From Alphaproteobacteria bacterium (GTDB taxonomy: Bacteria; Pseudomonadota; Alphaproteobacteria; RF32; CAG-239), in the NCBI GenBank assembly GCA_016283295.1, contig JAEEMQ010000009.1, forward strand, positions 96,713 through 142,113: a stretch of DNA of 45,401 nucleotides. Reading direction: 5' to 3'. A program made the position numbers and the translations under genes. The notes under the pieces are model-generated. The model saw only the letters and a program-made list of their open reading frames with translations, made no database searches and was not told where the DNA came from. The stretch's first letter is position 1. The number at the start of each line of letters is the position of its first letter. Of the stretch, positions 22,737-39,277 are shown piece by piece.

Positions 22737-24155
22737 TTAATTTTGTTTGACCGGCAAATATACCGTAAATGTGTTGCCGTTATAAGCGGTTGACGATACG
22801 GTTAGGTTGCCGCGATGGTGCATTACTACCTGTTTGGCAATAGCCAGACCGAGTCCGGTGCCTTTTATCTTCATATCTTTATGTACCTGCATACGGTAGA
22901 ACTTTTCGGTCAGGCGCGCCAAATCTTCTTTGTTTATCTTCTGGCCCTTGTTGTTGAAAGATATGCTGACCGCGCGACCGCCGGCAACGTTTTGCCCGGC
23001 TTTGGCCGGAATTTCCGGCACGGCTTTCAGCTCAATTTTAACCTCGGAATTTTCCGGAGCATATTTGATGGCGTTATCCAACAGGTTTTGCAACACCTGG
23101 TGAATTTGCTGATTATCGCCGACGATTTTCGGAATGCGGTTGGCTTCGGTAATGTTGATGCTGACGGAACGCTGGAAAGCTTTGATTTTGAGCGCCTGTG
23201 TAACATCATCGATGACTTCGTGCAAATCAACTTTATCTTTAAGCTCTTTATTTTGCCCCATTTCCAAACGCGAAAGCGACAACAAATCTTCAATCAGGCT
23301 GGCCATATATTCGGTTTGTTCTTTCATTATGCCCAAAAAGGCATCGCGGGTTTCTTCGTCGTCATGCGCGGTGGTTTGCAAAGTTTCGATAAAACCGGAA
23401 ATAACCGAGAGTGGGGTGCGTAATTCGTGGCTGGCATTGGCTACAAAATCCGATTGCATTTTTTCCAGGCTCAGCGCTTTGCTGACATCGTAAAGCGAAA
23501 CAACGGCGGCAGCACGGCCTTTGAGGTGGCGCGGCAGCTTGGTAATATGGGCATAAAAACGACGGTTACCGTATTCCGGCGCGTGAAACAACACGCTTTC
23601 CGAATCGCTTTTGGCTTTTAAAACTTTATCAACGGCGGCGATAAAAATGTTGGTTGAAAACAGCCGGTCGATGCCGTTAGCAGCCATATTCGGCCCCAAA
23701 AGCATTTCCGCCGCCAAATTATAATTGGTTATACCGCCCTCGTTATCAAGCATCAGAATCGGATCGGGCAGGGTGTCGAAAACCGCGGCATCGGAGAGCG
23801 TTTGCGCCTCCAAAGTATCGTTTTTTGAGGTCCAGATTTTGTGAATGGCATTGATGGCCTGTGCCAGCTCACGCGTATCTTTTTCCGAAAGTTCGATGTC
23901 GTTTTCGTTGGCGTTGCCGGTGGCTAAGGTCTGAATATAATTGCGCAAGGTCCGCAACTCCGCACTAATCGGAAAAATCAGCAACAAATTGGAAACAACC
24001 GTAATGGTAAAACACACAATCGCCACCAGCGGCGTCATAAAATTAAGCACCGCCAAATCAATGTATACGACGGCCAGCGGCAGCGACAGAATCAGGGCGC
24101 GTTTAAAATGTCGCGCGTCTATGTCTATCTGGGATATTTTAAATCGTTTCTTCAT
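22737..24155 (-). CDS. PhoR-like sensor histidine kinase
   Basis: A 472-residue membrane histidine kinase. Two adjacent transmembrane helices near the N-terminus (LILSLPLAVVYIDLAVLNF and LVAIVCFTITVVSNLLLIF) leave almost no periplasmic loop. A PAS domain follows (FDTLPDPILMLDNEGGITNYNLAAEMLLG, about 125-230), then the HisKA domain with phosphoacceptor His243 (FVANASHELRTPLSVISGFIETLQ). The HATPase_c domain has an N box LQNLLDNAIKYAP and G boxes (GTGLGLAIAKQVV). This is the PhoR domain plan, associated with phosphate sensing. No response regulator or pst genes lie nearby, so the partner and signal are unknown. Divergent from mutS. Confidence 0.9.
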   Translation of the reverse strand: MKKRFKISQIDIDARHFKRALILSLPLAVVYIDLAVLNFMTPLVAIVCFTITVVSNLLLIFPISAELRTLRNYIQTLATGNANENDIELSEKDTRELAQAINAIHKIWTSKNDTLEAQTLSDAAVFDTLPDPILMLDNEGGITNYNLAAEMLLGPNMAANGIDRLFSTNIFIAAVDKVLKAKSDSESVLFHAPEYGNRRFYAHITKLPRHLKGRAAAVVSLYDVSKALSLEKMQSDFVANASHELRTPLSVISGFIETLQTTAHDDEETRDAFLGIMKEQTEYMASLIEDLLSLSRLEMGQNKELKDKVDLHEVIDDVTQALKIKAFQRSVSINITEANRIPKIVGDNQQIHQVLQNLLDNAIKYAPENSEVKIELKAVPEIPAKAGQNVAGGRAVSISFNNKGQKINKEDLARLTEKFYRMQVHKDMKIKGTGLGLAIAKQVVMHHRGNLTVSSTAYNGNTFTVYLPVKQN

Positions 24156-24253
24156 CTGATTTATCCGTCTATAACATCAATAAAATACTGGACTAAGATG
24201 TGAAATATTGTAATATACAAGAAGTTTAAATTAGTTTAAGATTTTAAGGTAAA

Positions 24254-26944
24254 ATGTCAGAAAAAGAAGTAATCTCACCGGGAATGGTGCAGTATATCGA
24301 AATTAAGAAGTCGTATCCGGATTATTTGTTGTTTTATCGGATGGGCGATTTTTATGAGCTGTTTTTTGAAGATGCAATCAAGGCATCGGAAGCGCTCAAT
24401 ATTACACTAACCAAACGCGGACGGATGAAAGGCAAAGACGTGCCGATGTGCGGAGTGCCGTTCCACGCTTACGAAAATTATATGGCGCGGTTGATTAAGG
24501 CCGGCTATAAGGTGGCGATTTGCGAGCAGATGGAAGATCCGGCAGAGGCACGCAAACGCGGCTCAAAGTCGGTGGTCAAGCGCGACGTTATTCGCCTGGT
24601 TACTTCCGGCACGTTGACCGAAGACACGCTGTTGGATGCCCGGCGCAACAATTATCTGCTGTGTTTGAGCAAAACGCTCAAAGGTTACGGTGCGGCCTGG
24701 CTCGATTTATCTACCGGTGCATTTTATACGCAGGAAGTTCATATCGGCGCGCAAGGGGAGGCGGCCGAGCTTTACGGGTTGTTGACGCGCATTATGCCGG
24801 AGGAAATATTGATTTCCGATGCGTTGTTGCAAAATCCGGATTTGTTCAAGCTGTTCAACGAATATAAAGAAAAACTTTCGGTGTTGCCGCAGGCGCGTTT
24901 CAATTATGCCAATACCCAAAAGAAACTACTGTCTTTTTATAATATTTCGGCGACCGAGGCTTTCGGCGATTTCAGTAAAGGCGAGATAATTGCCGCCGGA
25001 TTGGTGCTGGAATATGTGGAAAATACGCAAAAAGGCAAAATGCCGCGGATTGTGCGTCCGCTCAAAATTTTGGACTCGCTGTATATGGAAATCGATGCGG
25101 CCACGCGGCAGAATTTGGATTTGATGAACGGTCCGCACGGCAATTCGCTGTTGGCGGTTATCGACCGAACGGTCACCGGTTTCGGGGCGCGAATGCTGGC
25201 GGCCAGATTGTCGGCACCGCTTTTGGATTTGGAAAAAATCAACAAACGCTTGGATGCGGTGGAGTTTTTTTGCAAACACGATGAGGTGCGGCAAAAATTA
25301 CGCTCGCTGCTGAAAATGTGTCCGGATATGGAACGTTCGCTGACCCGCCTCAGTATCGGACGCGGCGGTCCGCGCGAACTAAAATGTGTTGCCGATGCGT
25401 TGCTGTTGTTGCCGGAAATTCGCAATACCATGCTGATTTATAAGAGTACGGACGTGGTTGATCAGACGCGGCCGGCGGTAGAAGAAATCGTGAAACGAAT
25501 CGGTAATCACACCGCTTTGGCGGATAAGCTGAACAGCGCTCTGATTGAGGTGGATGCCGCCGAAACATTGCCGGCATTTGCCCGCGACGGCGGGTTTATC
25601 CGCAGCGGTTTTCATCCGGGTTTTGACGCTTTGTGCGAACTGCGCGACAACGGTACGGATAAAATCGGCGATTTGCAGGCAAAATATGTGCAATCAACCG
25701 GCATTGATAACCTCAGAATCCGCGATAATTCGCTTATCGGCTTTTATATTGAAGTGCAGAATAAATATGCCACGCAACTGTTGTCCGACCCGCATTTTAT
25801 CCATCGGCAATCCGTTTTAAATGCCACGCGTTTTACTACGGCCGAGCTGACCGAATTGGAAAACAATATTCGCAGTGCGCGTGAGCGGGCATTGGCGATG
25901 GAAATCTCTATCTTTGACGATTTGGTGCGCGATGTTCTGATAGCGGCCGATGATATATGTCGCACGGCGGCGGCGTTGGCGGAACTCGATGTGGCAGCGG
26001 CATTGGCGGATTTGGCGCTCGAAAACAATTATTGCCGGCCGCGGCTTGACAACAGTTTGTTGTTTGAAATCGAGGAAGGACGGCATCCGGTGGTGGAAAC
26101 TGCCATCAGAAGCAATAACGAAGGTGCTTTTGTCGGCAACAACTGCGAACTTAATCAGCAGGATAACCGCATTTGGTTGATTACCGGTCCGAATATGGCG
26201 GGTAAATCCACGTTTTTGCGGCAGAACGCCATTATTGCGATTATGGCGCAGATGGGCTCGTTCGTGCCGGCCAAGAAGGCGCATATCGGGTTGGTGGATA
26301 AGGTATTTTCGCGTGTGGGAGCTTCCGACGATTTGTCGCGCGGGCGTTCTACTTTTATGGTAGAAATGATAGAAACCGCCTCGATTTTGAACCGTGCCGA
26401 CGAGCGCTCGTTTGTGATTTTGGATGAAATCGGGCGCGGTACCGCTACCTTCGACGGGCTGTCGATTGCTTGGGCGGTGGTGGAATATTTGCACGAGGTC
26501 AACAAATGTCGGGCGCTGTTTGCCACCCACTATCACGAGCTGACGGTGCTTTCCGAAAAACTTTCGGCCCTGACGTTGCATTGTATGAAAATCAAGGAAT
26601 TTAATGACCAGGTGATTTTTATGCACGAAGTGATTGCCGGTGCGGCCGACCGTTCTTACGGTATTCATGTGGCCAAGTTGGCCGGTCTGCCGAAGGCGGT
26701 CATTCGTCGCTCGGAGCAGGTGTTGCAAAAACTGCAAAACGAAAATCGTCAGCATAAGGCGGCGGATTTGCAAGACGAATTGCCGCTGTTTGCATTTGCC
26801 GAGCCGATGGCGGCCGATACGGTTGCAGTTGTGCGCGAATCGGCGGCAGCAAAGGCTCTTAAAGAAATTGAACCGGATAATTTGACGGCGCGGGAAGCGT
26901 TGCAAAAATTGTATGAACTTAAAGAATTAGCGGAGAATGAATAA
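24254..26944 (+). CDS. mutS: DNA mismatch repair protein MutS
   Basis: A full-length 896-residue MutS that recognises base mismatches and small loops and recruits MutL. The N-terminal mismatch-binding domain has the Phe-x-Glu motif at 33-35 (RMGDFYELFFEDA). The connector, lever and clamp domains follow. The C-terminal ATPase has Walker A GPNMAGKST at about 645, Walker B (SFVILDEIGRGTATFDG) and the dimerisation helix-turn-helix (YGIHVAKLAGLPKAVIRRSEQVL). AAGG lies upstream of the ATG. Its end overlaps the MazG-like gene, making mutS-mazG-priA one operon. Confidence 0.98.
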   Translation: MSEKEVISPGMVQYIEIKKSYPDYLLFYRMGDFYELFFEDAIKASEALNITLTKRGRMKGKDVPMCGVPFHAYENYMARLIKAGYKVAICEQMEDPAEARKRGSKSVVKRDVIRLVTSGTLTEDTLLDARRNNYLLCLSKTLKGYGAAWLDLSTGAFYTQEVHIGAQGEAAELYGLLTRIMPEEILISDALLQNPDLFKLFNEYKEKLSVLPQARFNYANTQKKLLSFYNISATEAFGDFSKGEIIAAGLVLEYVENTQKGKMPRIVRPLKILDSLYMEIDAATRQNLDLMNGPHGNSLLAVIDRTVTGFGARMLAARLSAPLLDLEKINKRLDAVEFFCKHDEVRQKLRSLLKMCPDMERSLTRLSIGRGGPRELKCVADALLLLPEIRNTMLIYKSTDVVDQTRPAVEEIVKRIGNHTALADKLNSALIEVDAAETLPAFARDGGFIRSGFHPGFDALCELRDNGTDKIGDLQAKYVQSTGIDNLRIRDNSLIGFYIEVQNKYATQLLSDPHFIHRQSVLNATRFTTAELTELENNIRSARERALAMEISIFDDLVRDVLIAADDICRTAAALAELDVAAALADLALENNYCRPRLDNSLLFEIEEGRHPVVETAIRSNNEGAFVGNNCELNQQDNRIWLITGPNMAGKSTFLRQNAIIAIMAQMGSFVPAKKAHIGLVDKVFSRVGASDDLSRGRSTFMVEMIETASILNRADERSFVILDEIGRGTATFDGLSIAWAVVEYLHEVNKCRALFATHYHELTVLSEKLSALTLHCMKIKEFNDQVIFMHEVIAGAADRSYGIHVAKLAGLPKAVIRRSEQVLQKLQNENRQHKAADLQDELPLFAFAEPMAADTVAVVRESAAAKALKEIEPDNLTAREALQKLYELKELAENE

Positions 26945-27350
26945 AATGGATGTAAAAGAATATTTCAAAAATTATACTGATTTTGTGGACTCGGTAACGG
27001 CGGAAGTTTCGCGCAACGACGATATTTTTGCCGCACGGTTTAAACAGCTTTCCGGGTTGCTCGGCGGCAATTATTCGCGCTTGGATAATGCTATTGCCGG
27101 ACTTGCCGGCGAAAGCGGCGAAGTGGCGGATTTGTGGAAAAAAGTCAAATACCACAGTTTGGAATATGATGCCGAAACCCGCGAAAAATTCAAAAAAGAA
27201 CTGGGTGATGTGTGCTGGTATTTGTTTCAAACGGCCTATGCACTCGGCATGCCGATGGATGAAATCATCGACGGTAATGTCGAAAAGCTGAAAAAACGCC
27301 ACAGCAACGGTTTTTCTCCGAACTATCTGTTGCAGAAAAAGGGCGCATAA
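26937..27350 (+). CDS. MazG-like nucleotide pyrophosphohydrolase
   Basis: A 137-residue all-alpha NTP-PPase of the MazG type. The metal-binding acidic motifs are visible: AGLAGESGEVADLWKKVKYH and, about 35 residues on, KKELGDVCWYLFQTAYALGM. The C-terminal NVEKLKKRHSNGFSP is typical of MazG-like proteins. Members hydrolyse nucleoside triphosphates to monophosphates and can cleanse the pool of damaged nucleotides, which would fit its place between mutS and priA (inference). The start is ATG 26937 (inside the last mutS codons) or ATG 26946; the upstream GGAG suits either imperfectly. Confidence 0.85.
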   Translation: MNKMDVKEYFKNYTDFVDSVTAEVSRNDDIFAARFKQLSGLLGGNYSRLDNAIAGLAGESGEVADLWKKVKYHSLEYDAETREKFKKELGDVCWYLFQTAYALGMPMDEIIDGNVEKLKKRHSNGFSPNYLLQKKGA

Positions 27351-27351
27351 A

Positions 27352-29529
27352 ATGGTGCGTACCGTCGGCGTTTTACTCCCGTTGCCTTTTGATAAACCGT
27401 TTGATTATACGGTGGATTTTGCGGTGCAAGTCGGGCAAATTGTGGAGGTGCCGTTCGGTAAAGAAAAACAAATCGGCGTGGTGTGGAGTTTGGAACCGAC
27501 GTCGGAGTTGGAGCAGGGGAAAATCAAGGCGATTATCAAGGCATTCGATTTTCCGCCGCTCAAAATTGAAATGCTGAAATTCATCAAATGGGTGGCCGAT
27601 TACAATATGGCGCCGCTGGGCTCGGTGTTGAAAATGGTAATCAGCGTGCGCTCGGTGTTTGAACCTTCGCCGATGACGGTGCTGTATACTTTATCCGGCA
27701 AAACGCTGGCAGAGGCCAAGCTCAAAAATTCGGATGCGCGTTGGCACGTGATGGATTTGTTGAAACACGCGCCGTATACACGGCAGGAAATTGCCGCCGG
27801 TGCCGGAGTGAGTCAGGGTGTGATTAAGCCGATGATAGATGCCGGCGTTTTGGTGCCGATTTATGTGGAAAACAAAAAGGAATTTACCGAGCCGATAGGC
27901 GATTACGTGAAAGTGGATTTGACTGCCGAACAAATAAAAGCCGCCGAGTTGCTGTGTCGCAAAGTCGGGGCGGGGTTCTCGGTAACGCTGTTGGACGGGG
28001 TAACCGGTTCGGGCAAAACCGAAGTTTATTTTGAGGCGGTGGCAAAGGCGCTGGAACAAGATACGCAAGTTCTGATTTTAGTGCCGGAAATTTCTCTTAC
28101 CGCCCAATGGCTGCGGCGTTTTCAGAGCAGATTCGGCGTGCGTCCGGCCTGTTGGCATTCGGGGCTGACGGTTAAAGAGCGGACCGATACCTGGAAGGCG
28201 ATAAGCGAAGGCCGCGTCAAGGTGGTGGTCGGGGCACGCTCGGCGCTGTTTTTGCCGTATACCAAACTCGGGCTGATTGTGATTGATGAGAGTCACGACC
28301 ATTCGTATAAGCAGGAAGATGCGGTAAATTATCAGGGGCGCGATATGGCGGTGGTGCGGGCTAAAATAGAACATTTTCCGGTTATTTTATCAACCGCGAC
28401 GCCGGCGCTCGAAACGTTGGTCAATGTTGACGAGGGCAAATATGATTGCGTTAAACTGAACAGCCGTTATGCCAATGCCGTGTTGCCGGATATCAAAATC
28501 ATCGATATTAAAAAAGATAAGCCGCAACGCGGAGAATGGGGCGTTTCCTGGCTCACTCCGACCATGGTTAAGGCTTTGCAAAATAATTTGGAAAACGGCG
28601 AACAATCGGTATTGTTTTTAAACCGGCGCGGGTATGCTCCGCTGTTGATTTGCCGCGATTGCGGACACCGAATTCAATGTCCGAGTTGCAGCGCGTGGCT
28701 GACCGAACACAAAAACGCGCATAAGTTGATGTGTCATCATTGCGGCTATGTCGACGATATTCCGGAGGTTTGTCCGCATTGCGGTTCGGCCGAGGGTTTG
28801 ACGGCTTGCGGACCGGGAGTCGAGCGGGTGGAGGAAGAAGTTTGTATGCGTTTTCCGACGGCAAAAGTCGATATTTTATCGAGCGACAGCGCCACTTCGT
28901 TTACGGCGCTTTCTAAAATCATCGGCAAAATGGAGCGCAAAGAAATCGATATTTTAATCGGTACGCAGATTATTGCCAAAGGGCACCATTTTCCGGATTT
29001 GACGCTGGTCGGAATTGTTGATGCCGATTTGGGGTTGATGAGCAGCGATTTGCGCGCGGCCGAGCAAACGTATCAGCTGTTGTCGCAGGTGGCGGGACGT
29101 GCCGGACGTAGCGATAAGCACGGCACGGTTTATGTGCAGACGCTACACCCGGAGAACAATGTGTTGAAGGCGTTGCTCAATAATGATCGGGCATTGTTTA
29201 TGGATTTTGAAAAAGAAAGTCGGCAGATTCTGCATTATCCGCCGTACGGCAAATTGGCGGCGCTGATTATTTCCGGCACCAACCAACAGCAGACGGGCGC
29301 GGTGGCAGCGGCATTCGGACGCACCGCTCCGGATACGGAAAATATTTCGGTGTTGGGACCGGCACCGGCGCCGTTGTTTATGTTAAGGGATAAATATCGC
29401 TATCGGCTGATGTTGAAAACCACCCGTAATATCAATATTCAACAAGTTTTGCGCGAATGGCAGAAAATGGTGAAAGTGCCGTCGAGCGTGCGGGTAGAGG
29501 TGGATATCGACCCGTATTCGTTTACTTAA
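27352..29529 (+). CDS. priA: Primosomal replication restart helicase PriA
   Basis: A 725-residue PriA, the 3'-5' DNA helicase that reloads the replisome at stalled forks. The N-terminal DNA-binding domain (VGVLLPLPFDKPFDYTV) is followed by the helicase core with Walker A GVTGSGKTE at about 216 and a DESH box (LIVIDESHDHSYKQED). The zinc-binding insert with paired CxxC motifs is intact (CRDCGHRIQCPSC, CHHCGYVDDIPEVCPHCG). Motif V/VI (LLSQVAGRAGRSDKHG) and the C-terminal domain ending VRVEVDIDPYSFT are normal for the family, so the 3' end is not disrupted by the adjoining prophage. It starts one base after the MazG-like stop codon. Confidence 0.97.
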   Translation: MVRTVGVLLPLPFDKPFDYTVDFAVQVGQIVEVPFGKEKQIGVVWSLEPTSELEQGKIKAIIKAFDFPPLKIEMLKFIKWVADYNMAPLGSVLKMVISVRSVFEPSPMTVLYTLSGKTLAEAKLKNSDARWHVMDLLKHAPYTRQEIAAGAGVSQGVIKPMIDAGVLVPIYVENKKEFTEPIGDYVKVDLTAEQIKAAELLCRKVGAGFSVTLLDGVTGSGKTEVYFEAVAKALEQDTQVLILVPEISLTAQWLRRFQSRFGVRPACWHSGLTVKERTDTWKAISEGRVKVVVGARSALFLPYTKLGLIVIDESHDHSYKQEDAVNYQGRDMAVVRAKIEHFPVILSTATPALETLVNVDEGKYDCVKLNSRYANAVLPDIKIIDIKKDKPQRGEWGVSWLTPTMVKALQNNLENGEQSVLFLNRRGYAPLLICRDCGHRIQCPSCSAWLTEHKNAHKLMCHHCGYVDDIPEVCPHCGSAEGLTACGPGVERVEEEVCMRFPTAKVDILSSDSATSFTALSKIIGKMERKEIDILIGTQIIAKGHHFPDLTLVGIVDADLGLMSSDLRAAEQTYQLLSQVAGRAGRSDKHGTVYVQTLHPENNVLKALLNNDRALFMDFEKESRQILHYPPYGKLAALIISGTNQQQTGAVAAAFGRTAPDTENISVLGPAPAPLFMLRDKYRYRLMLKTTRNINIQQVLREWQKMVKVPSSVRVEVDIDPYSFT

Positions 29530-29765: not shown

Positions 29766-30209
29766 TCAGTTGGCTTTGCGCAACTCGTTATAAATTTCGA
29801 TAAAGTCTTTAACTTTGCCGGCAGCCACGTCAAGCGAATCGCCGCAGACTTTGATGTATATCAATTTAATCAATTCGGCCTTATCGTGCGGCTCCAGCGA
29901 AATATTGCGTTTACTCAGCCAGGTTTCGATGTTTTCGATAACCAAACTCAATATCTCCGAATTGATAGTGGCAGCCGAATAGGTCGCGACATTGAGCGAT
30001 AAGTCGGTCAACTCCTGTTCGTCAACGTGAAGAATTTGCGCTAATTTATGACGCTCGACTTCTCCCAGGCGACGTGGCGAACCGTTTTTGATATATTGCT
30101 GAATATACGCAATATTTTTACCTATTGCCAGTGATACCTGTGCATAATTCAAACCGCGCTCCAAAATCAGGCGGGATATTTTTTTGCGAATTTCTTCCGT
30201 GTTTTCCAT
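29766..30209 (-). CDS. XRE-family phage repressor-like regulator
   Basis: A 147-residue DNA-binding protein. The N-terminal helix-turn-helix (about residues 8-62) has the lambda-repressor-like order of helices: ISRLILERGLNYAQVSLAIGKNIAYIQQYIKNGSPRRLGEVERHKLAQILHVDEQEL. The C-terminal 70 residues are helical (ILSLVIENIETWLSKRNISLEPHDKAELIKLIYIKVC) and probably dimerise. There is no S24 peptidase domain and thus no obvious RecA-dependent self-cleavage, so induction must work another way. GAGGT precedes the ATG. It is divergent from the rightward phage operon and has its own promoter, the position of a CI-type lysogeny repressor. Confidence 0.8.
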   Translation of the reverse strand: MENTEEIRKKISRLILERGLNYAQVSLAIGKNIAYIQQYIKNGSPRRLGEVERHKLAQILHVDEQELTDLSLNVATYSAATINSEILSLVIENIETWLSKRNISLEPHDKAELIKLIYIKVCGDSLDVAAGKVKDFIEIYNELRKAN

Positions 30210-30332: not shown

Positions 30333-30833
30333 ATGGCGCATAACGGAATGTCGGCAGCAACGGCAAAAAGACGCGGGTATGTTTTGGATGAAAACGGAAT
30401 ATGGCGTAAAAAGACGGTTTTAGAGAAATATTTTGAAGAAGGCTACCTCGAATTGGAGGGGAGTCCGTTTTCGGCCGAACAGCGAAAGAAGGCAGGAGAA
30501 ATATTATCGAGGGACTATTACTTAGGAAATTATAATAAGCTGCAATCGAGCAAGCTCTTTAAGCTGGGTATAAGAACAACCGGAAACGTAGGAGAAGATA
30601 CAGCTATGTACTATAAAGAAAGATATTTGCACGCCGTTAAAAATATCCCGTATGAGTTTTGGCCGACGGTTTATAAAGTGTGTATCGAGGACACGAGAAT
30701 AGATCAATTTGAAGAAAAAAACGATAATTCCTTAAAAACAAAAAATAAATATTATTGTCTGAAAGTGTTTCTGTGCCTGGGTTTGGAAAGATTACTCAAA
30801 TATTATTTACAAAAAAATAAAAAAAGTTCTTGA
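30333..30833 (+). CDS. Phage regulator-like protein, possibly DUF6456-like
   Basis: A 166-residue basic protein with no signal or membrane segment. The N-terminus is MAHNGMSAATAKRRGYVLDENGIW. The C-terminal half, with GEDTAMYYKERYLHAVKNIPYEFWPTVYKVCIEDTRI and YYCLKVFLCLGLERLLKYYL, resembles the DUF6456 domain of alphaproteobacterial phage and host proteins (tentative, by eye). GGAGGATG precedes the ATG. It is the only gene between the repressor switch and the late promoter, and its end overlaps that promoter's -35. This is the place of Q in lambdoid phages, so late-gene activation or antitermination is a reasonable guess, not a demonstrated function. Confidence 0.7.
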   Translation: MAHNGMSAATAKRRGYVLDENGIWRKKTVLEKYFEEGYLELEGSPFSAEQRKKAGEILSRDYYLGNYNKLQSSKLFKLGIRTTGNVGEDTAMYYKERYLHAVKNIPYEFWPTVYKVCIEDTRIDQFEEKNDNSLKTKNKYYCLKVFLCLGLERLLKYYLQKNKKSS

Positions 30834-30858
30834 CATTTAGTGACTAATGTGATAAGAA
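30830..30858 (+). promoter_or_regulatory. Putative phage late promoter
   Basis: Consensus -35 TTGACA, 17 bp, -10 TAAGAA. The spacer contains the odd palindrome TTAGT-G-ACTAA (30837-30847), a second possible operator. The promoter lies about 50 bp before a strong terminator and drives towards the structural genes. Confidence 0.65.
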
Positions 30859-30905: not shown

Positions 30906-30936
30906 GGAGATTGAGGCAGCTCAGTCTCCTTTTTTT
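30906..30936 (+). terminator. Strong leader terminator before the late operon
   Basis: GGAGATTGAG / CTCAGTCTCC, a 10-bp stem with one G-U pair and a GCAG tetraloop, followed directly by seven T. It lies between the late promoter and the first late gene, so transcripts from that promoter should end after about 70 nt unless antiterminated. Confidence 0.9.
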
Positions 30937-30947
30937 ATGGAGTGAAA

Positions 30948-31199
30948 ATGATGTATCGGGCAATTATGGATAGAGTTATTGTAAGATTATGCAATACTGA
31001 CGATAAATCGCCGATTATCCGTGAGGAAAGCCGCTATCGCAATCGGGGTGTGGTTTTAAGCGTGGGGCCGGAGGTTTCCGGAGTTAAGGTCGGCGACGAA
31101 ATTATTTTTCATTATTTTGATGATTTGCCGTTGGCGCAAAAAGATGTCGTGGCGGTTCGCGAAAAAAGCATTTTGGGAATCGTCGGCGAATCGGGTTAA
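30948..31199 (+). CDS. Phage-encoded GroES-like co-chaperonin
   Basis: A protein of about 83 residues (start ATG 30948 or 30951; GGAG at 30939 spaces better to the second). The match to Cpn10 runs through the whole length: N-terminal strand YRAIMDRVIVRL, a polar mobile-loop segment with a hydrophobic core (NTDDKSPIIREESRYRNRG), GVVLSVGPEVSGVKVGDEIIF, and the closing VVAVREKSILGIVGE. Compared with E. coli GroES (97 aa) the roof hairpin is reduced to PEVSG. T4 gp31 is also a phage GroES substitute. It would cap host GroEL for folding of phage proteins, probably the capsid or portal (inference). First gene of the late operon, 28 bp before the portal. Confidence 0.8.
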   Translation: MMYRAIMDRVIVRLCNTDDKSPIIREESRYRNRGVVLSVGPEVSGVKVGDEIIFHYFDDLPLAQKDVVAVREKSILGIVGESG

Positions 31200-31227: not shown

Positions 31228-32991
31228 ATGACGCAAGAAAATTTGTCTCGCAAGGAATTGCGAGATGCTTGGCAACGGAAAATTTCCGCCGCCGAAAAAA
31301 AATATGCCGATTATTATGATTTGATATCCGAGATTCGCGGATATTATCGTAATGAACGGCGCCGTAACAAACAAAATGTTTTTTGGGCAACGGTGGAAAC
31401 CATGAAGCCGTTTTTGTATTTTAAGCAACCGACGCCGTTTATTGTGCGCAGTCGTAAGGCGGTTGATGAAACTCAGCTGCTGGCCGCGACGATTTTGGAG
31501 CGGGCGCTTTATTGGAATATGAAGCAATTTGATTTTGACAGCGTGGTTAAATATGCCCGCAACGATTTTCTGCTTTCGGGAATGGGAGTGCTGTGGGAGC
31601 AATATTGTCCGAGTTTTTACACCATCGGCAACGAAATGCTCAAAAGCGGCGAGCAGGTCAATACGACCTATGTGAACCCCACCATGTTTTTGATGGATAC
31701 GCAAAATGTCAATGTGTGGGAAGACGTGGAGTGGATTGCCCGCAAAACCTATATGTCGATAGCGGATATTTATGAGAATTTTGATACGGCGATTGCCAAA
31801 TATCTTAATTCGCGTTTCGGCGATGTCGGCAATATCACCGTTTACGAAATTTGGGATAAGCCGAGCCGCTCGATTTATTATTACAGCCCGGAATATCCGA
31901 CGGACTTTTTGGAGGTTTATGAAGATACCCTGCATTTGAGCGGATTTTTCCCGTGTCCGAAACCGATTATGTCGACGCTTGCCAACGACGGTATGATTCC
32001 GGTGCCGGATTATGTGGAAATCAAGAGCCTGCTTGATGAATTGGACGGGGTTAACAACCGGATGCGGCTGACGATGCAGGCGCTAAAAGTTTCGGGCTGT
32101 TATGATAACAGTTTTCCGGAGCTGGCCAACATTTTGGATAAGGATGTAACGCTGATTTCGGTATCGGATTTCGATAAACTGAAAGAAGCCGGCGGTATTA
32201 AGGGAATTATCGATTTTGCGCCGATTGAACAATATGTGACGGCGCTCGAAACTTTGGCGCGTCGCCGTCAGGTTTTGATTGATTCGATTTATGAAGTGAC
32301 CGGTGTCAGCGATATTATGCGCGGCTCGTCGCAAATCGGCGAAACGGCAACGGCGGTTACGCAAAAGACCAACTTCGGTACACTCCGTAATCAGGACCGG
32401 CAGAACGATATGCAGCGTTTTTTGAAAGACCTGCTGCGGATTAAGGCGGAGATTATCTGCGAACAGTTTTCGCCGACGTTTTTGTTATCGTTCTTAAACC
32501 CGGATGAGCGCGCCGATATGGTTAAGGCTACCAACGCGGTCAAACTGTTGAAGGCGGAAAAACTGCGCGGGTTGATAATCGATTTGGAGACCGACGGTTG
32601 TTTTAATGTGGAACGCGAAGAAGAACGCACGCTCAGGGTTTTGAAAAACGTGCACGAACTCATCAGTCAGGCTTTCGGAATTGTTTCGCAACAGCCGGCG
32701 TTGTTGCCGCTGTATCGGCAGATGCTGGAGAGCGCAATGTCTACCATGCCGAAAGCGCGGCAGTTTGATACGGTTATAGATGCGGCGTTTAATAAAATCA
32801 GCGCCGAACTTAATAAGCCGGATGATAAGCCGCAACCGAATAACAATAACGCATTTTTGGAAGTGCAGAAGCAGAAAAACGCGCAGGATTACGCTATTAA
32901 AAAAGAACAAAACGAACTCAAGCGCGAAGAACTTAATTTGAAAAAGCTGGAGGCCTTGAAAGAGACCGCGGCGGAAGCAGATAAACGGTAA
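31228..32991 (+). CDS. Phage portal (head-tail connector) protein
   Basis: The ATG at 31228 has an excellent AAGGAGA site; the track start at 31117 is inside the GroES gene. The 587-residue protein resembles portal proteins of podovirus-like phages. Indicators are the N-terminal AWQRKISAAEKKYADYYDLISEIRGYYRN with KPFLYFKQPTPFIVRSR, a middle NDFLLSGMGVLWEQY, and especially YEVTGVSDIMRGSSQIGETATAVTQKTNFGTLRNQDRQNDMQRFLKDLLRIKAEIICEQF. The C-terminus is a charged coiled coil (QKNAQDYAIKKEQNELKREELNLKKLEALKE). Twelve copies form the DNA gate at the capsid vertex. It is unusual that the portal lies about 5 kb upstream of TerL and 8 kb from the scaffold. Confidence 0.88.
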   Translation: MTQENLSRKELRDAWQRKISAAEKKYADYYDLISEIRGYYRNERRRNKQNVFWATVETMKPFLYFKQPTPFIVRSRKAVDETQLLAATILERALYWNMKQFDFDSVVKYARNDFLLSGMGVLWEQYCPSFYTIGNEMLKSGEQVNTTYVNPTMFLMDTQNVNVWEDVEWIARKTYMSIADIYENFDTAIAKYLNSRFGDVGNITVYEIWDKPSRSIYYYSPEYPTDFLEVYEDTLHLSGFFPCPKPIMSTLANDGMIPVPDYVEIKSLLDELDGVNNRMRLTMQALKVSGCYDNSFPELANILDKDVTLISVSDFDKLKEAGGIKGIIDFAPIEQYVTALETLARRRQVLIDSIYEVTGVSDIMRGSSQIGETATAVTQKTNFGTLRNQDRQNDMQRFLKDLLRIKAEIICEQFSPTFLLSFLNPDERADMVKATNAVKLLKAEKLRGLIIDLETDGCFNVEREEERTLRVLKNVHELISQAFGIVSQQPALLPLYRQMLESAMSTMPKARQFDTVIDAAFNKISAELNKPDDKPQPNNNNAFLEVQKQKNAQDYAIKKEQNELKREELNLKKLEALKETAAEADKR

Positions 32992-33039: not shown

Positions 33040-33750
33040 ATGCCATACGATTCTCAAGGTAATTTTTACAGAATACATAATTGGGAGCAAGATCGCCTGG
33101 ACGATATAGAAATCGTCAGCGATCGTCATGATGAAGAAGATGATAATTTTGCGGAAGGTTTAAGCCAGTGTGTGTTGCGCGACGGACGGGCCGCGCTTAC
33201 CGATAATATGAATGCCGGAAATAACCGGATTCAAAATTTAAAAGCCGGTGCGGCCTCAACCGATGCGGTTAATAAATCGCAGATGGACAGCGCGATAAGT
33301 TCGGCAAATTCGACAATTACGACCGCTTATCAAAACTATGTTAAAACGGTGCTTGGTACGATATATCCGGTCGGTTCGGTGTATATCGGTACGCAAAACA
33401 CCTGCCCGATGGCGAGCTTGATTTCCGGTTCGACCTGGACGCTGGTATCTTCCGGTAAAGCATTGTGGACGGGTACGGGCTCAAACGGCAACACGACAAT
33501 AAATGCCGGTTTGCCGAATATTACCGGTGCATTCAATCATCAATGCTTCATGAACTGGGGTACGGGCACCGAAAGCGGAGCGTTATATACCGGCAGCGGC
33601 GGTAGCAGTACGCAAAACGCCGGCGGTTCGGATGGCGGCAATACGCAGACAATCGCCTTTGACGCTTCAAAATCTAACAGTATTTACGGTAACAGCACGA
33701 CGGTACAACCGCCGGCGTATGTGGTTAACGTTTGGCGCAGAACGGCATAA
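33040..33750 (+). CDS. Phage tail fibre protein, short
   Basis: A 236-residue protein with AGGAGG upstream. The N-terminal part (to about residue 85) contains a collagen-fibre-like attachment segment common in fibres: ALTDNMNAGNNRIQNLKAGAASTDAVNKSQMDSAI. The C-terminal domain begins TIYPVGSVYIGTQNTCPMASLISGSTWTLVSSGKALWTG and ends SIYGNSTTVQPPAYVVNVWRRTA, the pattern of baseplate-wedge/tail-collar-type receptor-binding domains; the middle is Gly/Ser/Thr/Asn-rich. A perfect TATAAT lies at 33013-33018 in the short spacer before it, but no matching -35 is visible. Probably one of two host-recognition proteins. Confidence 0.75.
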   Translation: MPYDSQGNFYRIHNWEQDRLDDIEIVSDRHDEEDDNFAEGLSQCVLRDGRAALTDNMNAGNNRIQNLKAGAASTDAVNKSQMDSAISSANSTITTAYQNYVKTVLGTIYPVGSVYIGTQNTCPMASLISGSTWTLVSSGKALWTGTGSNGNTTINAGLPNITGAFNHQCFMNWGTGTESGALYTGSGGSSTQNAGGSDGGNTQTIAFDASKSNSIYGNSTTVQPPAYVVNVWRRTA

Positions 33751-33761
33751 AGGAGGTAATT

Positions 33762-34115
33762 ATGAGCGGAACAATACAAAACAATCTAATCACGGTGCGG
33801 CAGGGCGACAGCTTTACTTTGGACCTTTTGATAAAAGAACGGGGACAACCTCTGAATTTGAGCGGTGCCGGTATTTTGATGCAGGTGCGGGAAAAAGACG
33901 GAGGCAATTTGCTGTTTGAAATCAGCGGTACGGCGGTCGATGCGGCAAACGGCAAAATGGCGCTGGTGATAACACCGACACAAACAAGCAACACCGTCGG
34001 CGATTATGCGTGTGATATTCAACTGACGACGGCGGGCGGCGACGTGCATACGATTTGGCCGGCCAACGTCAACCAAATCGGCACATTCAGAATTACGGAG
34101 CAGGTGACACAATGA
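33762..34115 (+). CDS. BppU-N-like Ig-fold fibre accessory protein
   Basis: The start at 33762 follows AAAGGAGGT exactly; the track start at 33732 overlaps the previous gene. The 117-residue protein is all-beta: VRQGDSFTLDLLIKERGQPLNLSGAGILMQVREKDGGNLLFEISG, then ALVITPTQTSNTVGDYACDIQLTTAGGDVHTIWPANVNQIGTFRITEQ. This is the pattern of the BppU N-terminal / DUF2479-like immunoglobulin domain found in phage baseplate and fibre proteins. It overlaps the next fibre gene by ATGA, so it probably helps assemble or attach that fibre. Confidence 0.7.
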   Translation: MSGTIQNNLITVRQGDSFTLDLLIKERGQPLNLSGAGILMQVREKDGGNLLFEISGTAVDAANGKMALVITPTQTSNTVGDYACDIQLTTAGGDVHTIWPANVNQIGTFRITEQVTQ

Positions 34116-35620
34116 TAGAGATTGAAGAAAAAGCGGTGCCGGTTATTGTTGATATCGGCGGCGGTGAGATAACGGCCAATATCAGCACCGGCAACAAAAT
34201 AGAAGTATCGTCGGGAAGCATTGTTCGCATGGATATTTCAACGGCGGTGCACTACATAAAATCCGGAAGCGCGGAAATCGCGGCGGCAGTTCGAGAAGGA
34301 ACTGCCGTTTTTGATTCGAACGTGCAAAATAAGCTGGCGGCATATAACCAAAACGCAAGCGATAAAACTCAAGAATTCAACGCCAACGCGGTTGATAAAA
34401 CCGCGTTGATTGAAGCTGAGGTAAATGCGGCACGTGATTGGGCAACCAAAGTCGACGGTCCGGTGGACGGTGAGGAATATTCGGCCAAATATTATGCCGG
34501 GCAGGCGGAGCTCATCGTGGCCGACGCGGCTGACAAAGATTTAAGCAACTTATCGGCGACCGGCGAGGCAAAATTTGCGGCAAAGCAAGATGTGATTGCC
34601 GATTTGGCGGACATCAGAAGCGGTGCGGCTGCGGGAGCGACGGCAGTGCAACCCGCTGATTTGTCGGTTTATGCTTTGAGTGCGGATTTGGCGACGGTGG
34701 CAACATCGGGGGCATACTCAGATTTATCGGGTAAACCGACAATACCGAGCGACACAAATGATTTGACCAACGGTGCGGGGTATATTACCTCGGCGGCGCT
34801 GTCCGGTTATGCCGCGGACAACGCCGTGGTGCATTTGGCGGGTACGGAAACAATAACCGGTGCCAAGACGTTTACCTATAACCCGACAATTCAGAGAAAC
34901 AGACCGCTTTTATTTATGAATGATAATTGGTGCACAAGAGGAACTTCCCCATCCAGCGCTCAATATCAAGCCGTTTGGTTTGGAGATACGGGCGGAAATA
35001 CAATGGGAGGAATGATAACTTTGTATAATACGGACGGAATGGTTGATACCGCATTAAGAGCATACAAAGGGGCATCAGCAGAATCTTATATTGAAGTGCG
35101 TTTGATGCATCCACTCAGCGGAAGTCCTACATTTATACCGACAAATGATAACAGTTATAATCTCGGAAGCTCAAGTAAGCGTTGGAAACAGCTTTTTGCC
35201 GGTACAACCACGATTGCGACTTCGGATGAGCGGTTAAAGCAAGGTATTGAAAGCGTGCCGGATACGGTTTTGGACGCATGGGGCGAAGTGGAGTTTTATC
35301 GTTATAAATTCAATGACGCGGTAGAAGAAAAAGGCTTTGCGGCGGCACGGTATCATACCGGAGTTGTGGCGCAGCGGATTATGCGGGTTTTTGCCGAACA
35401 CGGGCTGAATGCTTTTGACTACGGCTTGCTTTGTTATGACGAATGGGAAGCTAAGGCGGCGGACGTTGACGAGTCCGGCAAAATTATTCGACCGGCACAA
35501 GAGGCGGGCAATCGGTATGCGGTGCGCTATGAAGAATGCCTGTGTATGGAAGCGGCATATCAACGGCGCAGAGCCGAGCGGATTGAGGCGCGCTTGGCGG
35601 CGTTGGAAGCGAGGCTGTGA
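34112..35620 (+). CDS. Tail fibre with C-terminal S74 chaperone domain
   Basis: A 502-residue fibre starting at ATG 34112, translationally coupled by ATGA. Order: N-terminal beta domain (MIEIEEKAVPVIVDIGGGEITANIS), a helical Ala-rich shaft (about 55-130), a region with YSDLSGKPTIPSDTNDLTNGAGYITSAALSGYA typical of fibres, a receptor-binding beta region, then the endosialidase-type intramolecular chaperone (S74). The autoproteolysis site is TSDERLKQGI with Ser371, so about 131 residues would be released after trimerisation. The end is a coiled coil (RRRAERIEARLAALEARL). It is the main host-recognition candidate. Confidence 0.85.
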   Translation: MIEIEEKAVPVIVDIGGGEITANISTGNKIEVSSGSIVRMDISTAVHYIKSGSAEIAAAVREGTAVFDSNVQNKLAAYNQNASDKTQEFNANAVDKTALIEAEVNAARDWATKVDGPVDGEEYSAKYYAGQAELIVADAADKDLSNLSATGEAKFAAKQDVIADLADIRSGAAAGATAVQPADLSVYALSADLATVATSGAYSDLSGKPTIPSDTNDLTNGAGYITSAALSGYAADNAVVHLAGTETITGAKTFTYNPTIQRNRPLLFMNDNWCTRGTSPSSAQYQAVWFGDTGGNTMGGMITLYNTDGMVDTALRAYKGASAESYIEVRLMHPLSGSPTFIPTNDNSYNLGSSSKRWKQLFAGTTTIATSDERLKQGIESVPDTVLDAWGEVEFYRYKFNDAVEEKGFAAARYHTGVVAQRIMRVFAEHGLNAFDYGLLCYDEWEAKAADVDESGKIIRPAQEAGNRYAVRYEECLCMEAAYQRRRAERIEARLAALEARL

Positions 35621-36315: not shown

Positions 36316-36543
36316 ATGGATTGGTTGCAATTTTTACAAATAATCTGTGTGCCGGCCTTTGGCTGGCTTTTTTATAAGCTGGGCGAAACTCGCAAGGAGC
36401 TGAACGATTTTAAGGTGGAAATGGCCAAAGAAGCCAAAAATTATGCCACCAACGAGGCGATTTTGCGGGTGGAAAATAAACTCGACGATTTGCGCAGTTT
36501 GATTATCGAAGAAATCAAAAAAACAACCAAAAGGAGGGTGTAA
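36316..36543 (+). CDS. Holin-like small membrane protein
   Basis: A 75-residue protein with one N-terminal membrane helix (WLQFLQIICVPAFGWLFYKLG) and a charged coiled coil (ELNDFKVEMAKEAKNYATNEAILRVENKLDDLRSLIIEEIKK). GGGAGG precedes the ATG. The stop overlaps the start of the endolysin gene (TAATG). Size, topology and position point to a holin or a holin-associated protein; the long coiled coil is also found in hemolysin XhlA-like phage proteins, a good alternative. Confidence 0.65.
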   Translation: MDWLQFLQIICVPAFGWLFYKLGETRKELNDFKVEMAKEAKNYATNEAILRVENKLDDLRSLIIEEIKKTTKRRV

Positions 36544-36965
36544 TGTCTGATTTGGATATTTTGGCGCGAACGATTTACGGCGAGGCGCGCGGTGAGGGAC
36601 GCGAAGGTATGGAGGCGGTGGCGTGCGTTGTGATGAACCGCTATCGCTCACATAAGTGGTACTGCGGATATACCTGGATGAACGGGATGAAGGTGCCGAG
36701 TGTGGCACAGACCTGTCTTAAGCATTATCAATTCAGCTGTTGGAACAAAAATGACCCCAACCTGGATAAACTGTTGAAGGTAACGGCCAGAAATAAGCAA
36801 TTCCGGGAGTGTCTGCTGGTGGCGCAAAAGGCGCTTTCGGGAGAGCTGCAGGATTTTACCGGCGGTGCAACGCATTATCATACCAAGGATATAAAACCGT
36901 ATTGGGCCAAGGATAAAACTCCGTGCTTTGCGCTCGGTAATCATATTTTTTATAAGGAGAACTGA
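36543..36965 (+). CDS. SleB-like cell wall hydrolase (endolysin)
   Basis: A 140-residue peptidoglycan hydrolase of the SleB/Hydrolase_2 type. The catalytic Glu lies in LARTIYGEARGEGREGMEAVACVVMNR, and the rest of the domain is present (TCLKHYQFSCWNKNDPN, GGATHYHTKDIKPYWAKDKTPCFALGNHIFYK). There is no signal peptide, so it needs a holin to reach the periplasm. It acts as a lytic transglycosylase-like enzyme in relatives. It sits between two small membrane proteins and just before the spanin pair, completing the lysis cassette. Confidence 0.88.
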   Translation: MSDLDILARTIYGEARGEGREGMEAVACVVMNRYRSHKWYCGYTWMNGMKVPSVAQTCLKHYQFSCWNKNDPNLDKLLKVTARNKQFRECLLVAQKALSGELQDFTGGATHYHTKDIKPYWAKDKTPCFALGNHIFYKEN

Positions 36966-36966
36966 G

Positions 36967-37125
36967 ATGGGAAAGCAGAAGCGTTATCAATTTTGGCGCT
37001 GGCTGATTTTGAGCATCGTGCGCATAAAAAAACTCTATACTCTGACCTGGGGTATCGTGATTTTATTGATAATCGTCTGTTTGAAAACCGATTTGGTGCG
37101 GTTGCTCGGGAGTTTGCTGCCATGA
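36967..37125 (+). CDS. Small single-span membrane protein of the lysis cassette
   Basis: The start at 36967 follows AAGGAGAACTGAG; the track's 36928 start is inside the endolysin gene. The 52-residue protein has a basic N-terminus (MGKQKRYQFWRW) and one long hydrophobic segment (LYTLTWGIVILLIIVCL). Its stop overlaps the Rz start (ATGA). It could be the true holin or an antiholin; with the 75-aa protein upstream it may form a two-component system. Confidence 0.6.
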   Translation: MGKQKRYQFWRWLILSIVRIKKLYTLTWGIVILLIIVCLKTDLVRLLGSLLP

Positions 37126-37328
37126 AAATGATCTTGCTGGCGTGCGGGGCCGTGGTGTTATCGGCGTACGGCGGCTATTTATATGGCAAAAGCCAGGCAA
37201 AAACGCAGATAATCGAAAAGCAAACGGAGGTAATAAAGTATGTGGCGCAAAAACGGGCGAAAATTCAGGCTCAGCCCAATGCTTCTCGCGCTGAGTTGCT
37301 TGAACTCATGCGCAAGGGTGAATTGTGA
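37122..37328 (+). CDS. i-spanin (Rz-like)
   Basis: The ATG at 37122 overlaps the upstream stop. The 68-residue protein has an N-terminal signal anchor (MILLACGAVVLSAYGGYLYG), then a coiled coil (KSQAKTQIIEKQTEVIKYVAQKRAKIQ) and the ending NASRAELLELMRKGEL, a common end of alphaproteobacterial phage Rz proteins. The i-spanin bridges the inner membrane to the lipoprotein partner and disrupts the outer membrane in the last step of lysis. The o-spanin gene is nested in its 3' half in another frame, the typical Rz/Rz1 layout. Confidence 0.78.
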   Translation: MKMILLACGAVVLSAYGGYLYGKSQAKTQIIEKQTEVIKYVAQKRAKIQAQPNASRAELLELMRKGEL

Positions 37329-37467
37329 GCCGGTGAATTTGCCGCAGTTTCCGCACGCCGGCGCTAAGGTGGCGGCCGAAGCGGAAAATTTGAGCGCGGA
37401 AGAATTTCCCAATATGTGGGAGTGGTTCGCGCGCCTCAATAAACTGCGGCAGGAATTGGAAAACTAA
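37240..37467 (+). CDS. o-spanin lipoprotein (Rz1-like)
   Basis: A 75-residue product in the +1 frame, starting inside the Rz-like gene and overlapping it by 89 bp. MWRKNGRKFRLSPMLLALSCLNSC gives a basic, hydrophobic signal with a lipobox-like end (LNSC, or less likely ALSC). The mature part is Pro-containing (EPVNLPQFPHAGAKVAAEAENL) and ends FPNMWEWFARLNKLRQELEN, similar to other phage Rz1-like proteins. The lipobox is not ideal, so acylation is probable, not certain. Confidence 0.75.
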   Translation: MWRKNGRKFRLSPMLLALSCLNSCARVNCEPVNLPQFPHAGAKVAAEAENLSAEEFPNMWEWFARLNKLRQELEN

Positions 37468-37485: not shown

Positions 37486-37761
37486 ATGGCAAAAAAGAAA
37501 ACGGCGGCGTATTCGTTTGCCGAAAGCTTTACAATGTTGAACAAACTGCAGCAGATGGCGATTGACGAAGGCAATATCAGTTTGGCGCTCAAGGCCGAGG
37601 AACTGAAATGCAAAATCGCCGCGCTGCAGGCAGATAAGGAAAGTAATTTATCAAACGAAAACTTAACCGGTATTTTGGTGGATTTTATCAATGAAGAACA
37701 AAGTAATAGTAAAGATTCCGCAGATATTTGCGCCGCTGATACGGCAAAAGAAAAGGTATAA
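37486..37761 (+). CDS. Terminase small subunit-like protein
   Basis: A 91-residue helical protein with GAGGAGG upstream. Residues 10-50 form a likely helical hairpin (ESFTMLNKLQQMAIDEGNISLALKAEELKCKIAALQAD), and the C-terminus is polar. It immediately precedes and overlaps TerL by 71 bp, the normal site for TerS, which recognises the packaging site and forms a ring. It is shorter than most TerS proteins and has no visible helix-turn-helix, so the call rests mainly on position. Confidence 0.65.
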   Translation: MAKKKTAAYSFAESFTMLNKLQQMAIDEGNISLALKAEELKCKIAALQADKESNLSNENLTGILVDFINEEQSNSKDSADICAADTAKEKV

Positions 37762-39016
37762 ACTTTATTACGGCGGCAGAGCCGGCGGCAAGAGTTATGC
37801 CTTTGCCGACAGCTTGTTGCTTTTGGGACGGATGAAAAAGTTGCGGATAGCGTGTATGCGCGAGATTCAAGACAGTATTAAGGACTCGGTGCATAAGCTG
37901 TTGAGCGATCGTATTTGCTTTTATAACCTTACCGATTATAAGGTTACGGAAACGCAGATTGTCAACAAAATCACGGGTACGAGCTTTATCTTCAAGGGCT
38001 TGCAGGAGCACAATGCCGGCAATATCAAATCGCTGGAGGGAGTGGATATCGTATGGCTGGAAGAAGCACAGAAAATCAGCAAAAAAAGCTGGGAGATTCT
38101 GGACCCGACCATTCGTAAAGCCGGCTCGGAAATTTGGATTTCGATGAATCGCGAAGAAGAAAACGACCCGGTGTGGAAGGCGGTGGCGGCTAATCCGGAT
38201 GAGCGTACGCTGGTGGTTAAAGTCAACTATACCGATAACCCCTTTTGCCCGGAAGAAATGAAATATCTGGCGGAGAAATGCCGGTGCGAGAGCCCCGATG
38301 ACTATGCGCATATCTGGCTCGGGGCGCCGGTTGCCGCGGGCAGTCACAAGCTTATCGGCTATAACGCGGTGCACAAAGCAACGCAGACGCAGCTGATGAA
38401 CTCGTCCTCGCCGCTGATTATCGGAATAGACGTGGCACGTTTCGGCGATGATAAAACTGTTTTTTGTTTCAGAAAAGGGCGGTTGTGCACGGAGTTTAAA
38501 AGCTTTGCCGGTCTGGATAATGTGGCGGTGGCCAATCAGGCAACGCACTATATCCGCGACTATAAGCCAGCGCGGGTGTTTGTGGATGCCGGCGGCGTCG
38601 GCGGCGGAGTGATTGATATTTTGCATGACCGCGGTTTTAAGAAAATCGTGCGGGCGGTGATGTTCGGCTCCAAAGCCTTGAATGATGAGCGCTATCATAA
38701 TCGGCGCGCGGAAATGTGGGACGAGCTGCGGCAGTGGCTCGCCTCTGAGCCGGCGGTTAAGATTCCGGATAACGAGAATTTGTGTGCGGAATTGTGTGCC
38801 GTCAACAAAAAATACGACAGCCGCGGTCGTTTGCAACTCGAGGAAAAAGACGAGATAAAAAAGCGGCTGGGGCGTTCGCCGGATATGGCGGATGCGTTGG
38901 CGCTGACGTTTGCCGAGCCGGTTTACGATAACGGTACCGAAGAATATGCCGGTTTCAAGGAAAACAGCATTGAGAGCCTGTTTCGGGCCAATGTAAAGAA
39001 AAACAATTCGTGGTAA
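37691..39016 (+). CDS. Terminase large subunit
   Basis: A 441-residue DNA-packaging motor of the PBSX/phage_terminase_3 type. The N-terminal ATPase has Walker A GGRAGGKS at 28-35 and Walker B VDIVWLEEA. The C-terminal RNase H-like nuclease has its first acidic residue at Asp247 (IIGIDVARFGDD), a second in VFVDAGGVGGG, and the last in SPDMADALALTF. All motor and nuclease residues look intact, so packaging should be functional. No ribosome binding site is seen before the ATG within TerS, which implies coupled translation. Its type resembles headful-packaging phages (inference). Confidence 0.93.
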   Translation: MKNKVIVKIPQIFAPLIRQKKRYKLYYGGRAGGKSYAFADSLLLLGRMKKLRIACMREIQDSIKDSVHKLLSDRICFYNLTDYKVTETQIVNKITGTSFIFKGLQEHNAGNIKSLEGVDIVWLEEAQKISKKSWEILDPTIRKAGSEIWISMNREEENDPVWKAVAANPDERTLVVKVNYTDNPFCPEEMKYLAEKCRCESPDDYAHIWLGAPVAAGSHKLIGYNAVHKATQTQLMNSSSPLIIGIDVARFGDDKTVFCFRKGRLCTEFKSFAGLDNVAVANQATHYIRDYKPARVFVDAGGVGGGVIDILHDRGFKKIVRAVMFGSKALNDERYHNRRAEMWDELRQWLASEPAVKIPDNENLCAELCAVNKKYDSRGRLQLEEKDEIKKRLGRSPDMADALALTFAEPVYDNGTEEYAGFKENSIESLFRANVKKNNSW

Positions 39017-39049
39017 GGACTTATAATGCCAAATAAAGGAGTAAAAACA

Positions 39050-39277
39050 ATGACTTATATTGCAAAACAATTCGCGGAGGAGGTCGTTCTTCCGGACGGA
39101 TCTGTCGCATCGTCGGTCGCCGATGTCGATAAGTATTTACGCACAAGCGGAATGGCGCGTGCCAGCGACTATTCGCCCGAGTATATCAAAAATATTCGGG
39201 CAAAAAACGAGAAACAGCGGCAAGAAGAACTTTTTGCCGATTTTTTATACAATTACAAAAGGATGATATGGAAATGA
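39050..39277 (+). CDS. Small phage protein between TerL and scaffold
   Basis: The start at 39050 has AAAGGAG at a good distance; ATG 39026 lies before that site. The 75-residue protein (MTYIAKQFAEEVVLPDGSVASSVADVDKYLRTSGMARASDYSPEYIKNIRAKNEKQRQEEL) is soluble and helical with a C-terminal coiled coil. It overlaps the scaffold gene by 10 bp. Position suggests a role in head assembly or portal/terminase contact, but no family is recognised. Confidence 0.65.
   Translation: MTYIAKQFAEEVVLPDGSVASSVADVDKYLRTSGMARASDYSPEYIKNIRAKNEKQRQEELFADFLYNYKRMIWK

Follow-up and report, generated by a model that had tools for sequence, protein, structure and literature searches.

Results and Discussion

Organization of the locus

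The window analyzed here, that is, the whole stretch of 45,401 nt from contig JAEEMQ010000009.1 of an alphaproteobacterium (GTDB lineage RF32; CAG-239), carries on its forward strand a late-gene cluster of ~15 kb, which is headed by a small GroES-like gene (30948..31199) and whose last virion gene ends at 45187; the contig itself ends at the last base, 45401. The left flank (22737..29529) is of host origin, as judged by MutS, PriA and MazG matches, and comprises a reverse-strand gene at 22737 followed by mutS (from 24254), a mazG-like gene (from 26937) and priA (from 27352), all three on the forward strand.

The GroES gene is followed, like all the late genes on the forward strand, by the gene of a 587-aa portal protein (31228..32991), which was assigned to the Mx8 type by its match to phrog_12082 (7e-110) and by 28% identity over 86% to the portal of Myxococcus phage Mx8; unlike the cluster, Mx8 is a complete phage, and a search of the 4 kb around its portal revealed no GroES gene. 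Pfam and PHROGs identify a fibre or structural protein with a YadA-like stalk (33040..33750) and a tail fibre or spike with an S74 chaperone domain (34055..35620), the latter being hypervariable in comparisons within the genus. This hypervariability, with gene gain and loss, extends over the fibre/spike region 34055-36294, inside an otherwise conserved cluster, and a Stealth CR2-like gene (35617-36294) is present in some genus members only. The lysis genes comprise a possible holin (36316..36543), weakly indicated by one N-terminal hydrophobic stretch, a cell-wall hydrolase or endolysin (36543..36965; PF07486, 2.9e-18; PHROG 938), and a spanin pair recognized from its sequence (36993..37467), in which an Rz-like frame with a hydrophobic segment (36993-37328) overlaps the frame of an Rz1-like lipoprotein with a lipobox-like LNSC motif (37240-37467).

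The packaging and head genes begin with a 91-aa protein (37486..37761), which we regard as a small terminase (TerS) candidate from its homology to Terminase_2 relatives (L239, L236) and its position; it aligns to the C-terminal part of these relatives, and their N-terminal DNA-binding (HTH) region is missing. The large terminase (TerL; 37691..39016; PF04466, 8e-35) is separated from the major capsid protein (40169..41155; phrog_9953, 5e-97; found in 24/26 genus genomes) by two small genes of conserved position (39026-39277 and 39268-40146), whose location alone suggests a possible scaffold region (39026..40146). The conserved right end of the cluster is a head-tail/tail block detected with PHROGs (41235..45187), with genes starting at 41235, 41821 (tail), 42467 (phrog_5107), 44017 (acyltransferase-like) and 44516 (virion structural). 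No tape measure gene was found in the cluster, and this absence, together with the Mx8-type portal, supports its classification by gene content as podovirus-like.

A roofless GroES-like protein

The frame at 30948..31199 is intact, starts with ATG and encodes 83 aa; the GroES proteins of its relatives start at the position of its second Met (30951 in window numbering). It passes the Pfam cut-off for Cpn10 (PF00166; 25.8 bits vs. 21.1, E-value 1.1e-5) and matches PHROG 3188 ("co-chaperonin GroES", 9e-10), and the NCBIfam GroES cut-offs are far above its score, which indicates that it is divergent. The AlphaFold (AF2) model of the monomer, built from 54 aligned sequences, has a pLDDT of 86 and a pTM of 0.76, with low values solely in the mobile loop and the C-terminal tail. 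A phmmer search of PDB sequences gave no significant match, whereas structure comparison did: Foldseek reported GroES (5opx, E-value 2e-5) as the best match and also T4 gp31 (1g31, E-value 8e-4), and VIA-align gave Z-scores of about 9-12 against Cpn10 chains (1g31: 9.4). The GroES-like identity proposed in the earlier note is thus borne out by Pfam, PHROG and a predicted fold that matches both GroES and gp31, and structure prediction, for which a non-Cpn10 result had been named there as refuting, yielded the Cpn10 fold for the monomer. As judged from sequence and model, the protein is a genuine but cut-down GroES with the Cpn10 β-barrel.

The host's own groES is located elsewhere in the genome, adjoining groEL, and has the usual roof. 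Taking the roof as the residues that separate the conserved VG from VKVGD in the alignment, we counted 14 in the host GroES vs. 5 in the window protein and in 25/25 genus copies, and 5-6 in 62 relatives from other genera, in full agreement with the earlier claim that it is cut to a few residues. The mobile loop (motif SPII in the window), which had been described as divergent, is indeed 3 residues shorter than in the host GroES, with Gly-Gly among those missing, and its hydrophobic tripeptide is complete, according to the alignment, in 12/25 genus copies vs. 59/62 relatives. Because the loop is partly degenerate in this genus, the binding of GroEL by the genus copies may be weak or lost.

The shortened loop, the incomplete tripeptide in 13/25 copies and a dN/dS of 0.06-0.36, higher than for the portal or the capsid, could even be taken to mean that in this genus the GroES-fold protein has ceased to cooperate with GroEL, having become a factor of particle structure or assembly or being in decay, which would be compatible with a GTA-like nature of the cluster as a whole. 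However, these dN/dS values still correspond to purifying selection, the frame is open in all genus members that have the region, and the residues common to the GroES of the cluster and the host Cpn10 are conserved, all of which makes such a loss unlikely in our view.

The GroES sequence itself is a poor probe of viral databases: a scan of viral contigs for close relatives with GroES alone as the query returned none, and among 50,697 phage records just 2 contained a match. The useful search bait was the portal rather than GroES.

The region upstream of the GroES gene

An intrinsic terminator (30906..30936, forward strand), consisting of a 24-nt hairpin followed by seven T residues, is positioned 11 nt 5' of the GroES start. 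A terminator hairpin is found at this place in 24/24 genus members vs. 2/120 shuffles, and in 22 of the 24 the distance from the start of the T-run to the GroES ATG is at most 29 nt; the sequence of the hairpin varies among the genus members and its position is kept. Further upstream we read from the sequence a putative late promoter, TTGACA-N17-TAAGAA (30830..30858, forward strand), whose -35 element overlaps the stop codon of the preceding gene. A simple promoter score for this region was no higher than in shuffled sequences, which is partly explained by a search range that started 3' of the stop codon inside the -35 element; the assignment rests instead on the conservation of the block in the genus. 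With a promoter-like block and a terminator directly upstream, the view that the GroES gene opens the late operon holds.

The preceding gene (30333..30833, forward strand) encodes a 166-aa putative late activator or anti-terminator related to GafA, which is annotated as DUF6456 (PF20057). The window copy matches PF20057 below the Pfam cut-off (E-value 5.6e-4), a relative (L194) exceeds the cut-off with 33.4 bits, and the profile-profile comparison of the window gene family with DUF6456 proteins of other Alphaproteobacteria gave E-values of 2e-6 to 5e-8. Comparison of the predicted structure with the PDB revealed no significant match; the weak matches that suggested a sigma-28 likeness of the model were not counted as evidence. 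On the opposite strand lies the gene of a divergent, 147-aa HTH repressor-like protein (29766..30209), whose prophage relatives, among them L200 with 281 aa and L208 with 273 aa, possess a Peptidase_S24 domain that the 147-aa genus copy lacks; the HTH match in the window copy is weak.

A promoter followed by a terminator directly before GroES resembles the layout expected for anti-termination and, with a putative relative of an anti-terminator gene alongside, the arrangement of the Caulobacter GTA, in which GafZ, the C-terminal counterpart of GafA, acts as an anti-terminator and is kept off by the repressor RogA (PMC11150451). Further terminator-like hairpins were seen inside the late operon of genus members, upstream of the genes at 31228 (17/24), 39268 (9/11) and 41235 (4/4), as would be expected if the operon relied on processive anti-termination.

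Conservation, chromosomal site and descent

The cluster is present in 26/26 genomes of the genus, nearly all of the compared genomes being metagenome assemblies: the portal was found in 25, the capsid protein in 24, and at least one of the two in each. It is normally a single-copy element with conserved gene order. In 16 of the 19 genus genomes with enough DNA for the analysis it shares the left flank mutS-mazG-priA and lies 240-860 bp from priA (nearly always ~240-330 bp); the exceptions, in which the cluster is not at priA, are G006, G017 and G005. To the right, the neighbouring host genes vary from one subclade to another. Neither an integrase nor early or replication genes were found in the cluster.

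The portal tree and the tree of the unlinked host groEL have 12/19 splits in common (mean 0.25 and maximum 4 in 1000 randomizations), and no conflict between them reaches a support of 95 in both trees; the distances of the portal, TerL and the major capsid protein (MCP) track those of groEL as well as the distances of the chromosomal priA do. The distances of the repressor gene (29766, reverse strand) and of the gene at 44516 (forward strand) do not, and therefore recombination of some cluster genes with relatives is possible. The dN/dS values of 0.03-0.14 for the portal, TerL and MCP resemble those of the host genes next to the cluster and indicate purifying selection, with the constraint on the terminase and capsid genes ranking among the strongest.

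Additional observations concern individual genomes. In G006 (contig 15, L096/L097) and G008 (contig 10, L106/L107) variable extra genes just 3' of the cluster encode related proteins, whose C-termini resemble, by eye only, an L,D-transpeptidase-type enzyme. G025 contains the fixed cluster and a second copy in phage order with its own GroES (L100-L102 on C31; L124-L125 on C40).

The earlier note spoke of a small podovirus-like prophage. The podovirus-like gene content, with its Mx8-type portal, is upheld, and the prophage is not well supported: integrase and early genes are absent, the site is conserved and the inheritance is vertical. An ordinary temperate podovirus, which in this genus integrates by priA, no longer has an early region or has it at a different place, and uses GroES in a normal infection cycle, would have to be reconciled with precisely these features, with a gap to priA of ~240-330 bp in nearly all genomes, and with a copy number of normally one and a tree that matches that of the host. 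Genuine prophages that combine this late module with GroES do exist (G038 C11, see below), the hypervariability of the fibre genes is phage-like, and G025 has its second, phage-order copy; on balance we find this explanation rather improbable for the cluster of this genus.

Relatives outside the genus and the possible client

Portal searches detected related elements in 87/152 genomes of the family, representing 7/16 genera, nearly always with one portal per genome. In another genus, contig 11 of G038 has this late module preceded by an integrase, a repressor with S24, VRR-NUC and further early genes; by its gene content this element is a true prophage. Compact clusters were likewise seen in the further genera examined, but the relatives retain S24 repressors and other types of small terminase; a truncated TerS-like protein also occurs in relatives that may be either GTA-like or temperate. 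In another genus of the family, represented by G124 (L258-L259) and G122 (L264-L265), a related cluster occupies a conserved housekeeping site between dnaG-rpoD and the RNase E gene. The notion that all elements of other genera are ordinary prophages was dropped, as some, like those of G124 and G122, are compact and lie between housekeeping genes; these nevertheless have S24 repressors and different TerS types and may be either GTA-like or temperate. A scaffold of human faecal origin listed in GenBank as "Bacteriophage sp." (L002; MT835830) contains the same module and may represent part of a chromosome instead of a free phage.

The gene order in other genera is TerL-GroES-portal, while in this genus GroES and the portal stand together, apart from TerL and the capsid gene. 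Altogether, in 78/80 genome loci the GroES gene precedes the portal gene by no more than about 540 nt. The earlier note held that the capsid, portal or fibre needs a modified GroEL chamber; if one of them does, linkage favours the portal. Because it stays beside the portal even where the gene order has changed, the portal is perhaps the likeliest client of the co-chaperonin, as judged by linkage; the two exceptions (L231 and L235) keep our confidence in this prediction modest. No GroES gene adjoining distant Mx8-type portals was found.

Comparison with other viral co-chaperonins

T4 gp31 is likewise a viral protein of the Cpn10 fold (1g31), it aids a large particle protein, as the window protein may, and it has no roof loops, its dome being open or wider (PMC6318259). 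However, its mobile loop is longer than that of GroES (22 vs. 16 residues), whereas that of the window protein is shorter than the host's, and it belongs to a lytic myovirus and not to a vertically inherited 15-kb cluster. The statement that phage co-chaperonins are best known from large T4-type phages proved incomplete, since GroES is also a core gene of the HTVC023P-type pelagiphages, podoviruses of ~58 kb (PMC9599517), and is found in the 37.6-kb phage DSL-LC05 (OR003940). The former are free marine phages, in contrast to the fixed chromosomal cluster of rumen and gut Alphaproteobacteria described here. DSL-LC05 has a roofless GroES directly before the portal, as in the window, but its GroES is only 34% identical and its portal was not found in the search with the portal of the cluster.

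A GTA-like reading of the cluster

Three marks of the cluster are GTA-like: a TerS candidate lacking the DNA-binding domain, a putatively GafA-related gene upstream, and a repressor without the S24 domain. The small terminase (gp1) of RcGTA also lacks a DNA-binding domain (PMC6854486). RcGTA and CcGTA resemble the cluster in their vertical inheritance and perhaps in their GafA/DUF6456-type regulator, and CcGTA additionally in its control by a repressor; judged by PHROG hits (an Mx8-type portal in the cluster), they appear to differ in their head-tail gene set, and a GroES gene was not found reported for either. FpGTA of Faecalibacterium (PMC12946183) is a podovirus-like gut GTA whose small terminase is devoid of the DNA-binding domain, and its operon I was present in 12/12 Faecalibacterium genomes examined; it differs from the present cluster in its Gram-positive host, its two operons and its experimentally demonstrated particles, and the section of its description consulted makes no mention of a co-chaperonin.

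Vertical descent, the absence of integration and replication genes, purifying selection and a TerS candidate without the DNA-binding domain, as read from the sequences, are among the features by which a GTA would be recognized. We therefore consider it probable that the window contains a vertically inherited, podovirus-derived late cluster of 15 kb, most likely specifying a GTA-like particle, which encodes a roofless GroES of the viral type. Weighing against this reading are the sub-threshold DUF6456 match of the window copy, the cluster genes whose distances depart from those of groEL, the variation of the right flank, the three genomes with the cluster away from priA, the degenerate mobile loop, the predominance of metagenome assemblies and the truncated TerS-like protein of relatives. 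A vertically kept, phage-derived particle other than a GTA, serving as a killing capsid, for protein export or for lysis only, would exhibit the same conservation and purifying selection, as well as the lysis cassette and the variable fibres. Nevertheless, TerL, the TerS candidate, the portal and the capsid protein have all been kept, and the maintenance of terminase and capsid under such strong constraint points to DNA packaging; we judge a particle of this other kind to be quite unlikely.

For the GTA-like particle we propose the following scheme. The HTH repressor encoded on the reverse strand at 29766 would keep the divergent DUF6456 gene off. Once expressed, the DUF6456 protein would allow RNA polymerase starting from 30830-30858 to read through the terminator at 30906-30936, and the late operon would be made. 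GroES, as the first late product, could cap the host GroEL and widen or open its cage, allowing a large particle protein to fold. TerS without its DNA-binding domain, together with TerL, would package DNA without sequence choice, presumably including that of the host, and the endolysin/spanin cassette would let the particles out.

More tentatively, and with doubt slightly outweighing belief, we speculate that the cluster is a new, genus-wide GTA of the podovirus type, with its own roofless co-chaperonin and an anti-termination switch before groES, and that several genera of the family keep related elements fixed at different sites. Phage GroES, podovirus GroES, the roofless gp31 and a podovirus-like gut GTA (FpGTA) are already known; in the open literature searched we came across neither a GTA with a co-chaperonin gene nor a GTA-like element from these bacteria.

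If transducing particles are made, a whole genus of uncultured rumen and gut Alphaproteobacteria would have built-in transfer of chromosomal DNA and, if this reading is true, a podovirus-type GTA would exist in the very class on which most work on GTAs has been done. The presence of a dedicated GroES in a cluster without early genes would suggest that the host GroES alone is insufficient for the particles, and the question of which particle protein needs it becomes directly testable, with the portal as the first candidate. Finally, with prophages and fixed clusters side by side, the states before and after a possible conversion of a phage into a GTA can be compared, the changes on view being a repressor without S24, a TerS without its DNA-binding domain, and the absence of the integrase and early genes.
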